Shown: positions 2,115 to 20,634 of the stretch, in pieces
Layout of the letters: each line of letters opens with the position of its first letter
Position numbering within the stretch: position 1 is the stretch's first letter
DNA from: Thalassotalea sediminis
GTDB taxonomy: Bacteria > Pseudomonadota > Gammaproteobacteria > Enterobacterales > Alteromonadaceae
DNA: 64,000 nt
Direction of reading: 5' to 3'
Assembly (NCBI RefSeq): GCF_030295915.1
Contig: NZ_AP027361.1
Location: forward strand, 682,001 to 746,000
The notes under the pieces: generated by a model
Told to the model about the DNA's origin: nothing
Seen by the model: the letters and a program-made list of their open reading frames with translations, nothing else
The model's database searches: none
Translations under genes and position numbers: made by a program

Positions 2115-2182
2115 AAAAAAAAGCGCGTTAGGGTAACGCGCCTCAAATAAAAGAAAGCAGTCCAGGGAGGTGTTTTGCTCTC
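2115..2182 (-). ncRNA. Small RNA unit 1 with sigma-E-type promoter
   Basis: Promoter on the minus strand: TGAACTT (complement of 2210-2216), 16-base spacer between AACTT and TCTTA (complement of 2189-2193). The predicted start is G at 2182, 7 bases after the -10. The transcript of about 68 nt starts GAGAGC and contains a C-rich unpaired segment, ACACCTCCCT (about 2164-2173), which is complementary to a Shine-Dalgarno sequence. It ends in the hairpin GCGCGTTA/TAACGCGC (2123-2141) and eight U residues. No coding potential is apparent. The promoter pattern matches the known sigma-E/ECF consensus (GGAACTT, N15-17, TCTnA); the regulator itself is inferred. Confidence 0.75.
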
Positions 2183-2287
2183 AAGTAGTAAGACAGGGTG
2201 TTTAAATGAAAGTTCAATTTTTATGCAAATTATTTAAATAAAAACGCACAATAAGCCTGTATTATGAATTAAGTGATTAAAAAACAT

Positions 2288-2352
2288 AAAAAAACGCGTT
2301 AATAAAAATTAACGCGCGAATCGTTCATGAAACATAAGAGAATAACACCTTC
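2288..2352 (-). ncRNA. Small RNA unit 2 with sigma-E-type promoter
   Basis: TGAACTT lies on the complement of 2380-2386 and TCTAA on the complement of 2359-2363, with the same 16-base AACTT-to-TCTAA spacing. Predicted start G at 2352, transcript about 65 nt beginning GAAGGTG. The body contains CTCTTATGTTTCATGAAC, which shares GTTTCATG with unit 3. The terminator is CGCGTTAAT-TTTT-ATTAACGCG (2295-2316) followed by seven U residues. The -10 TCTAA is the closest of the four to the known sigma-E consensus. Confidence 0.77.
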
Positions 2353-2396
2353 AATACATTAGAGCTTATGAGTGAGTTAAAGTTCAAAAAATAAAC

Positions 2397-2460
2397 AAAA
2401 AAAAGCGCATCTTTAAAATGCGCATAACTAAACATGAAACACTAAGGGAATTAACTTCTC
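2397..2460 (-). ncRNA. Small RNA unit 3 with sigma-E-type promoter
   Basis: TGAACTT on the complement of 2488-2494 and TCTCA on the complement of 2467-2471, again 16 bases between AACTT and TCTCA. Predicted start G at 2460, transcript about 64 nt beginning GAGAAG. The body carries AATTCCCTTAGTGTTTCATG; the CCCTT stretch can pair with AAGGG ribosome-binding sites and the TTTCAT stretch with ATGAAA start regions. The terminator stem is GCGCAT/ATGCGC (2405-2423) with eight U residues. Confidence 0.77.
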
Positions 2461-2504
2461 ATAAAGTGAGAGTCGCTTAATCTCAATAAGTTCAAAAATT
2501 AGAT

Positions 2505-2568
2505 AAAAAAAAGCGCATTAAAAAATGCGCTATTAAGATGTTCAAGGGAAACACAATATGAAAGTCTT
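2505..2568 (-). ncRNA. Small RNA unit 4 with sigma-E-type promoter
   Basis: TGAACTT on the complement of 2596-2602 and TCTTA on the complement of 2575-2579, with the conserved 16-base spacing. Predicted start A at 2568, transcript about 64 nt beginning AAGACTTTCATATTG. The complement of its body (2535-2568) reads like a translation start region: AAGGG, nine bases, then ATGAAAG. The terminator stem is GCGCATT/AATGCGC (2513-2530) with eight U residues. It is the promoter-distal end of the array and is divergent from the lipoprotein gene at 2689. Confidence 0.77.
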
Positions 2569-2633
2569 GTAAGGTAAGAGTGGTGTATTTTAAAAAAGTT
2601 CAAAGAAAAAATAATTTTTTTTCATTTTGGTAA

Positions 2634-2653: not shown

Positions 2654-2688
2654 ATAAAAATCGTTAAAAATCTGTAGTCTTGGGCTTT

Positions 2689-3309
2689 ATGAATAAAATA
2701 GTTGTTTCTTTTATTGTATTAATTTCAACGTTATTTCTAAGTAGCTGTGCTACACCGCCGCCAAAAAATCCTGAGAATTTATGTGAAATTTTTAGAGAAC
2801 ATAGAGATTGGTATTTCGCCGCTAAAGATGCACGTGAACGATGGGGAACTCCAATTCATGTACCAATGAGCATGATGTATCAAGAGAGTTCATTTAAAGA
2901 TGATGCATTACCGCCTCGTGACTATTTACTTGGTTTTATTCCTTGGGGGCGTGTAAGTACTGCTTACGGCTATTCGCAAGCAAAGACCATGACTTGGCAA
3001 GACTATATTCGTGAAACGGGCAATTCTGGGGCAGATCGAGATGATTTTGACGATGCGATTGATTTTATGGCCTGGTTTATTTTCAAAACAAACAAAATTA
3101 ATCGTGTTTCAAAGTGGGACGCATATAACCAATATTTAAATTATCATGAAGGTTGGGGTGGCTTTAAGCGAAAATCTTATAAAAAGAAGCGCTGGTTAGT
3201 TAAAGTTGCTCGAATCGTAGATAATCGTTCAAGACGCTATAGTAGCCAACTGAAGTCGTGTGAAGCTGAATTGAATGAAAGCAGTTTATGGCGCTGGTTG
3301 TTTGGCTAA
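2689..3309 (+). CDS. Lytic transglycosylase-like (SLT-fold) lipoprotein
   Basis: The 206-residue product begins MNKIVVSFIVLISTLFLSSC, a lipoprotein signal peptide with lipobox LSSC, so it should be anchored to the outer membrane facing the periplasm. The central part has features of an SLT transglycosylase domain: MSMMYQESSF (candidate catalytic Glu in the YQESSF segment, about residue 65) and the later AYGYSQAKTMTW motif, equivalent to the GLMQ region. The family cleaves peptidoglycan glycan strands without hydrolysis. A TTG at 2680 is in frame, but ATG at 2689 gives a standard signal peptide. It sits directly beside the sRNA array. The exact substrate is not known. Confidence 0.8.
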   Translation: MNKIVVSFIVLISTLFLSSCATPPPKNPENLCEIFREHRDWYFAAKDARERWGTPIHVPMSMMYQESSFKDDALPPRDYLLGFIPWGRVSTAYGYSQAKTMTWQDYIRETGNSGADRDDFDDAIDFMAWFIFKTNKINRVSKWDAYNQYLNYHEGWGGFKRKSYKKKRWLVKVARIVDNRSRRYSSQLKSCEAELNESSLWRWLFG

Positions 3310-3848: not shown

Positions 3849-4116
3849 TTAGGGTCTGTTGAACTTTTGAGATTAAATTTTGTTCGAACTAAACGCTTTT
3901 TGTTCAAGGCGTGAGCAATGTCGCATGGTTATTCCATGTAAATTGCGAACAACGATGAAGAAATAGCGTTTAGCTGAACCCAGAGGGCAGCGTTTTTTGT
4001 CATTTATACGTCGTTATTGCTTTTTCATGTGGAATAACCACATATTAATCGCAATGCCTTGTCTAAATACCAATAAACTGCTGCAAAAATAAACGCGAAA
4101 GTTCAACAGACCCTAA
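3849..4116. mobile_element. MITE-like element with 19-bp perfect terminal inverted repeats
   Basis: The ends are TTAGGGTCTGTTGAACTTT (3849-3867) and its exact complement (4098-4116). The interior carries further opposed segments: TGGTTATTCCATG near 3926 against GGAATAACCACAT near 4030, and CAAGGC(G/A)TTG-like arms. The whole element can therefore fold into a long imperfect hairpin. It has no open frame, so it is non-autonomous. The flanks suggest a TA or TTA target duplication. Its right end overlaps the last codon of corB. A second, collapsed copy lies at 20434-20490, showing it is a mobile repeat family. Confidence 0.8.
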
Positions 4117-20433: not shown

Positions 20434-20490
20434 TTGAACTTTCGCGTTTAGTTCGAACAAAATTTAATCTCGAAAGTTCAACAGGCCCTA
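20434..20490. mobile_element. Collapsed copy of the MITE found at 3849-4116
   Basis: Read on the minus strand, it begins TAGGGCCTGTTGAACTTTCG and continues with the same 45 bases as the left end of the larger element. It then passes from TAAACGC straight into GCGAAAGTTCAA, the right end. The interior has been lost, with the join at a TAAACGC direct repeat present at both sides of the deleted part in the full copy. The far terminal CAGACCCTAA is missing. About 57 bp remain. Confidence 0.75.
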
Positions 20491-20634
20491 ATCAAAAGCC
20501 TAAATTAGCAAAGTCATGTGACTGCAAGATAAATAAAAACAAAGTCACAAAATTGGTGGGGGAGACGTTCGGTTTACTATGCTACATAGAAACACGGATG
20601 AAAAGCCTGCTTTGTCTAAAGTGGAAATAACAAT

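Follow-up and report, generated by a model that had tools for sequence, protein, structure and literature searches.

Results

The intergenic region between gshA and a transglycosylase gene

The gshA gene, which encodes glutamate-cysteine ligase (PF04262, 538 bits), was located on the plus strand at positions 497 to 2068 of the window, that is, of the whole 64-kb stretch of Thalassotalea sediminis DNA that was analyzed. A 12-bp perfect inverted repeat, identified in a repeat search, followed at positions 2083 to 2107 and probably serves as the gshA terminator. An SLT-type lytic transglycosylase gene (PF19489, 264 bits) was located on the plus strand at positions 2680 to 3309. On the minus strand, the region between the two genes contained four predicted sRNA units (positions 2115 to 2602), which we designated A, B, C, and D in the order of transcription. 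The array was 3' of and convergent with gshA, and it was divergent from the transglycosylase gene.

Each unit contained a minus-strand promoter with an exact match to TGAACTT-N16-TCTNA and a short minus-strand RNA, which was delimited using the sequence, a terminator scan, and an alignment. Promoter A (TGAACTT-N16-TCTTA; positions 2575 to 2602) belongs to the unit that is transcribed first, and its -35 element was invariant in the four species described below. It preceded the 64-nt RNA A (positions 2505 to 2568), which had the core UUUCCCUUGAAC and a terminator stem at 2512 to 2531. In unit B, promoter TGAACTT-N16-TCTCA (positions 2467 to 2494) preceded a 64-nt RNA (positions 2397 to 2460; core UUCCCUUAGUGUUUCAUG; terminator stem at 2405 to 2423), and in unit C, promoter TGAACTT-N16-TCTAA (positions 2359 to 2386) preceded a 65-nt RNA (positions 2288 to 2352; core UUCUCUUAUGUUUCAUG; terminator stem at 2294 to 2317). 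Unit D, the closest unit to gshA, carried promoter TGAACTT-N16-TCTTA (positions 2189 to 2216) and a 68-nt RNA (positions 2115 to 2182; terminator stem at 2120 to 2144), in which the core CCUCCCUGGACU was placed in the loop of a 5' hairpin by structure prediction.

A preliminary description of this DNA had reported four tandem minus-strand units with this promoter pattern and a purine 7 bases after the -10 element, RNAs of about 65 bases ending in a GCGC hairpin and U-tract, and an exact 108-bp period in three units, and we recovered all of these features. The four exact matches to TGAACTT-N16-TCTNA were the only ones in the 64-kb window (all on the minus strand; 0.05 expected), and none of 100 shuffles contained four or more. 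The whole genome contained seven matches, compared to two for the reversed pattern, and hence three lie elsewhere. The base located 7 bases after the -10 element was a purine in all four units (A2568, G2460, G2352, and G2182). Promoters A, B, and C started exactly 108 bp apart at positions 2602, 2494, and 2386, promoter D started another 170 bp on at position 2216, and the joints between units were A/T-rich. All of the RNAs (64, 64, 65, and 68 nt) ended in a GCGC hairpin and U-tract, and the scan detected four terminator-like sites, one per unit, compared to a mean of 0.5 (standard deviation of 0.8) in the shuffled region.

Searches with Rfam yielded zero matches in the 64-kb window at the gathering level. 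At a relaxed level, the array region yielded only sub-gathering matches to unrelated families (the best were SR6 antitoxin at 0.0047 and Bp1_162 at 0.026), and the same was true of the loci of 19 relatives (best, 0.02).

A 264-bp MITE-like element with terminal inverted repeats AGGGTCTGTTGAACTTT / AAAGTTCAACAGACCCT was also present in the window at positions 3851 to 4114. Near-identical stretches were found with a 150-bp query in two loci (L273 and L274) of a 1.6-Mb sample of the genome, and a 49-bp end piece of the element was located at window positions 20444 to 20492.

Conservation follows the limits of the predicted RNAs

We aligned the intergenic regions of four species of the genus (T. 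sediminis, G001, G002, and G004) and counted variable columns. Promoter conservation in close relatives had been set beforehand as a test, and none of the 28 columns in the -35 elements was variable. Variable columns made up 35 of 64 in the spacers, 5 of 20 in the -10 elements, 16 of 24 in the discriminators, 8 of 150 in the RNA bodies, and 13 of 112 in the terminators, where 11 of the 13 were in unit B. The difference in variability between the -35/-10 spacer and the RNA body was highly significant (p = 2.7e-15). The drift of the spacer ended, and conservation started, at the predicted +1, as anticipated if the units are real sRNA genes. Based on this pattern in the sequences, the four units are very likely RNA genes.

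The RNA body of each unit was 0.90 to 1.00 identical between the four species, whereas the bodies of different units were only 0.50 to 0.69 identical to one another. This indicated that the four distinct RNAs are older than the split of the four species and have been kept apart since. The preliminary description had proposed that promoters and terminators are kept while the bodies diverge. This held for comparisons between units (50 to 69% identity), but not for comparisons between species; because each body was 90 to 100% identical between the four species, the units appear to be separately maintained rather than freely diverging.

The promoters resemble the rpoE promoter

The rpoE gene of T. 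sediminis was preceded by GAACTT-N16-TCTCA, a layout in common with the array promoters, and the proposal that these are sigma-E-type promoters therefore agreed with the genome's own rpoE promoter sequence. A search of the genome with an RpoE-type model yielded 17 matches, of which one was above the cut-off (324.8 bits) and 16 were below. In Salmonella, transcription from the promoters of micA and rybB is reported to depend strictly on sigma-E (PMC1804206). Judging from promoter layout, we consider it highly probable that the array is under sigma-E control, and it is very likely that the array is a sigma-E-type sRNA array. An hfq gene was present in the genome, and the array RNAs have intrinsic terminators with a U-tail, features that are compatible with Hfq binding.

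It is quite improbable that a different ECF sigma factor reads these promoters and that the array answers a different signal. In favor of such a factor, the genome has 17 RpoE-type matches, 16 of them under the cut-off; against it, the sole match above the cut-off, RpoE, has the array promoter layout before its own gene, and the strict sigma-E dependence of the Salmonella promoters (PMC1804206) also argues against another factor.

Distribution and copy number in relatives

We used the transglycosylase protein, which was present in 51 of 59 genomes, as an anchor for relatives. A promoter-plus-terminator rule detected at least 53 units (one truncated) in 24 of 30 transglycosylase loci among the matches listed. 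We then built model R1 from an alignment (A1) of 28 diverse units, with near-identical units omitted. R1 matched 42 of 58 genomes, including T. sediminis itself: all 35 genomes of its family had a match, as did 7 of the 23 from elsewhere in the order. The five genomes of its own genus had 4, 4, 4, 8, and 4 matches, and some matches in the family were located away from gshA.

We also examined the top 80 of 301 named loci, most of them from Colwellia and Thalassotalea and some cut off by the end of a contig; within these 80, the nearest named relatives were Thalassotalea. R1 had 198 matches in 75 of the 80 loci, and 7 of the 198 were on the plus strand. There were 0 matches in 5 loci, 1 in 18, 2 in 24, 3 in 12, 4 in 15, 5 in 2, 6 in 3, and 8 in 1. 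The T. marina locus (L012) contained seven near-identical copies or partial copies of type A. In the case of two genomes from other families, tandem units were found next to gshA: two between gshA and a gene recognized by eye as luxS-like in G035 (L081, positions 945 to 1139) and three between gshA and the transglycosylase gene in G048 (L094, positions 973 to 1356). The separate tandem arrays in these two genomes suggested that the array may have been amplified more than once. The R1 surveys and the body identities bear out the earlier proposal that the units spread by tandem duplication and have unit-specific bodies. The transglycosylase gene, named in the preliminary description as the other flank, is the neighbor only in this lineage; the G035 units are flanked by gshA and a luxS-like gene, as micA is in E. 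coli.

Related units were observed at other sites. A genome of another family (G123) had four tandem R1 matches (E, 7e-5 to 3e-4) on contig C16 at positions 91709 to 92265, and its gshA gene was on a different contig. Type-B-like units away from gshA were found in G017 (three in L073), G011 (two in L074 and three in L075), and G007 (two in L068, one in L069, and one in L070). A sigma-E-like promoter, short RNA, and terminator were found 3' of a gene recognized by eye as polA-like, with weak R1 matches, in L079, L080, L082, L084, L085, L086, and L087 (G026, G025, G006, G014, G008, G042, and G049, respectively); up to three such matches were consecutive in L085. In E. coli, this neighborhood is the site of Spot 42.

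The array occupies the position of micA

In E. coli K-12, the gene order is luxS(-), micA(+), gshA(-), so that micA, like the array, is located on the 3' side of gshA and is transcribed toward it. The position of micA at the gshA 3' side is described for the Enterobacteriaceae (PMC4618604), and a MicA homologue has been proposed in Bordetella (PMC12235514). This position ran counter to the preliminary view that nothing of the kind is known between gshA and the transglycosylase gene. The related claim of an undescribed family was about half correct. The Rfam MicA model (RF00078; gathering threshold, 41 bits) had no match in the window, in the T. sediminis genome, or in the 19 genomes of its family that were listed, and it matched 16 of 247 genomes of the order (14 in family f18 and 2 in f10).

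R1 matched 49 of the 247 genomes. In 28 of the 49, a match was located by coordinates within about 1.3 kb of the 3' side of gshA on the opposite strand. These 28 included 18 of 19 from the family of T. sediminis, 5 from f20, 3 from f18, 1 from f15, and 1 from f2; 7 of them had contributed training sequences to R1, and 21 had contributed none. For the remaining 21 R1-positive genomes, gshA was elsewhere in 11, and the matches listed included no gshA coordinate for 10.

Next, we compared the models using 3-kb stretches from the 16 MicA loci retrieved with the Rfam MicA model. R1 found MicA in 16 of 16, at full length, with E values of 2e-6 to 0.016, and the alignment paired up the 5' GAAAG and UCCCUG. 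In whole-genome searches, R1 alone picked up MicA in just 3 (G156, G225, and G235) of the 16 genomes of the 247-genome set that carry it, and a match also coincided with MicA in G051 of the 58-genome set. R1 scored E. coli MicA at 41.4 bits, RybB at 27.0 bits, and the T. sediminis rpoE promoter at 16.2 bits. A body-only model, R2, which was weak (37 positions), found MicA in 0 of the 16 loci and failed as a proof of homology with MicA. Given the misses by Rfam and R2, it is the complete unit (promoter, 5' end, core, and terminator), together with its location, that resembles MicA. Both the location and the complete unit are likely homologous to those of MicA, and membership in RF00078 is not indicated. 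Taken together, these findings make it probable that the array and the MicA locus share a common origin.

Candidate targets among outer-membrane protein mRNAs

Pairing predictions were made with a 1.6-Mb sample of the T. sediminis genome, in which we called 1345 genes using a simple rule for starts rather than the annotation, and with all 42 Plug-domain TonB receptors found in the genome. When 31 OMP-like genes were compared to 956 non-secreted genes, the p values for preferential pairing were 0.017 for RNA A, 0.0054 for B, 0.34 for C, and 0.42 for D; this preference was reached by 0, 1, 0, and 28 of 100 shuffled RNAs, respectively (300 of the 956 genes). For the 42 receptors, the p values were 0.027, 0.034, 0.36, and 0.88, and the preference was matched by 0, 7, 3, and 4 of 100 shuffled RNAs (200 of the 956 genes). 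Lipoprotein-like genes showed zero pairing preference (p, 0.50 to 0.70). The best pairings were with the receptors at 183199 for RNA A (-23.7 kcal/mol), 2319121 for B and C (-24.5 and -24.8 kcal/mol, respectively), and 960623 and 2737217 for D (-28.2 and -25.3 kcal/mol, respectively).

GGGA was present at -30 to -1 in 18 of the 42 receptors, compared to 104 of 1330 other genes (p = 2.1e-9). AGGGAA, the complement of UUCCCU, was present in this region in 6 of 42 receptors versus 17 of 1330 other genes (p = 3.9e-5). It was the top hexamer among those found in at least three receptors, and its significance survived correction for the 126 hexamers from the four RNAs but not for all 4096. GGAG and AGGA were not enriched at -30 to -1 before the 42 receptors. 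In G002, of which 400 kb were examined, the three receptors with an orthologue retained GGGA(A/G) ahead of the start, as a plain ribosome site would too.

We compared receptors from four R1-negative genomes and two array-bearing relatives, using 30 loci each from 89 and 39 Plug matches, sets in which long receptors are under-sampled. GGGA preceded 7 of 30 receptors in the R1-negative genomes (6 of 16 in G047 and 1 of 14 in the other three) and 7 of 30 in the array-bearing relatives, and a frequency of about 3 to 4% would be anticipated for random 30-mers from either set. Hence, GGGA frequency at receptor ribosome sites failed to separate R1-negative from array-bearing genomes in these sets of 30 loci. 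A preference of receptor ribosome-binding sites for GGGA over GGAG or AGGA was seen in R1-negative G047 as well.

We also considered whether RNA A is the antisense of one ribosome-site type. The pattern AGGGAAAC-N1-12-ATG matched 10 times and its reversed control 9 times. Among the 10 was unit A itself, read on the opposite strand, and only one match preceded a long open reading frame (337 amino acids; GAPDH-like by eye). This idea was rejected.

Overall, the link of the array to TonB receptors, which comes from base-pairing predictions and motif counts, is suggestive. There is about an even chance that the array targets and represses TonB receptors, and it is plausible that the copies serve different targets.

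Discussion

The anatomy of the array, its conservation at the RNA level, the rpoE-like layout of its promoters, the presence of rpoE and hfq, its locus, and its copy number in relatives were established directly. As a full explanation, we favor, with reasonable confidence, four trans-acting sigma-E sRNAs that were tandemly amplified at the MicA locus and repress the translation of outer-membrane proteins. In this model, tandem amplification of a sigma-E sRNA located 3' of gshA, the MicA locus of other gammaproteobacteria, would have yielded four small RNAs that act in trans, every one of them served by a separate sigma-E promoter and a separate intrinsic terminator. Outer-membrane stress would release RpoE, and the four promoters would fire together to produce RNAs ending in Hfq-type U-tails. 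A conserved pairing core (UUCCCU in A and B, UCUCUU in C, and CUCCCUGG in D) would then pair with the ribosome-binding sites of outer-membrane protein mRNAs, chiefly those of TonB-dependent receptors, and translation would stop. It is likely that the amplification took place at the MicA locus and that the copies split into distinct paralogues.

There is a serious possibility, somewhat below an even chance, that the RNAs are true sigma-E sRNAs with other targets, such as porin, OmpA-like, or lipoprotein mRNAs. The GGGA bias of receptors in R1-negative G047 fits such targets, as does the finding that RNAs C and D had no significant preference for receptors over non-secreted genes. However, shuffled RNAs matched the receptor preference of A to D in only 0, 7, 3, and 4 of 100 cases, and lipoprotein-like genes, with p values of 0.50 to 0.70, showed no preference of their own.

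As for origin, an sRNA family independent of MicA might have arrived by convergence at this locus, this type of promoter, and a UCCCU core, since any envelope-stress sRNA gains from a seed against ribosome-binding sites. The mutual misses of R2 with MicA and of the Rfam MicA model with the array are in line with convergence, as are the sister units elsewhere in some genomes, including the four tandem matches on the non-gshA contig of G123. We regard convergence as unlikely, given that place and orientation at gshA are kept in 28 of the 49 R1-positive genomes of the order and that R1 aligned to MicA over its full length in 16 of 16 loci and scored it above RybB in E. coli. A repeat array with no regulatory role, made of repeated terminators or a spreading repeat in which the promoter-like words are incidental, would account for the tandem 108-bp spacing and the A/T-rich joints, and the seven near-identical type-A copies or parts in T. 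marina do point to recent duplication. Yet conservation follows the limits of the -35 element, the -10 element, the +1, and the terminator rather than the whole repeat, and gshA already has its own hairpin at 2083 to 2107; we therefore find a repeat array of this kind hardly credible.

If sigma-E sRNAs were indeed amplified at the MicA locus, MicA-type control of envelope stress by RNA would extend past the Enterobacteriaceae into common marine heterotrophs, a single-copy sRNA would have become a tandem family with separately conserved members, and sigma-E would be tied to TonB receptors, of which T. sediminis has 42. The 1 to 8 units found at one locus across related genomes would form a natural experiment on the growth of an sRNA regulon. 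More speculatively, and with less than even odds, sigma-E sRNAs could have originated long ago in the gshA 3' flank, with MicA as the enteric form that stayed single. Marine lineages might have amplified the gene repeatedly (4 to 8 units in the genus of T. sediminis, three in G048, and two between gshA and luxS in G035), with paralogues dividing a large TonB-receptor repertoire and a non-coding arm of the envelope-stress response growing with the receptors.

Our literature search found no paper describing the array, which does not prove the absence of one. Several similar sRNAs act under one regulator in the case of Qrr in Vibrio, and both Qrr and LhrC1-5 of Listeria differ from the array in that they have other regulators and unrelated sequences. 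LhrC1-5 are reported as several similar, stress-induced sRNAs under one regulator, like the array (PMC5880928). In the marine relative Alteromonas macleodii, the three sRNAs Aln1a-c are described as starting separately within a single 404-bp intergenic region, which resembles the array, but as CsrA-sequestering RNAs, a class other than sigma-E sRNAs; the start-site list published for strain Te101 of this species comprises 127 chromosomal sRNAs (PMC5864184). RybB of E. coli and VrrA and MicV of Vibrio are reported to be sigma-E-controlled sRNAs that repress outer-membrane proteins, as proposed for the array (PMC1804206, PMC7602753, and PMC11005410), and RybB and MicA are reported to accelerate the decay of omp mRNAs under sigma-E (PMC1804206). 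RybB is at a different locus than the array, and R1 scored it 14 bits under MicA. We rejected unit D as RybB-like because the resemblance to the 5' end of RybB, noted just by eye, extends over about 11 nt and the predicted 5' hairpin gives those letters a different role. The closest known counterpart in our comparison was MicA (SraD, RF00078), which is likewise found by R1, 3' of and convergent with gshA, and about 70 nt long, with a sigma-E-type promoter, a UCCCU core after a U-rich stretch, and an Hfq-type terminator. The array differs in that it comprises four tandem distinct copies rather than one, goes unrecognized by the Rfam model, and has bodies that on their own do not align to MicA; in addition, its likely targets, as predicted from pairing, are TonB receptors, whereas MicA is known for ompA.
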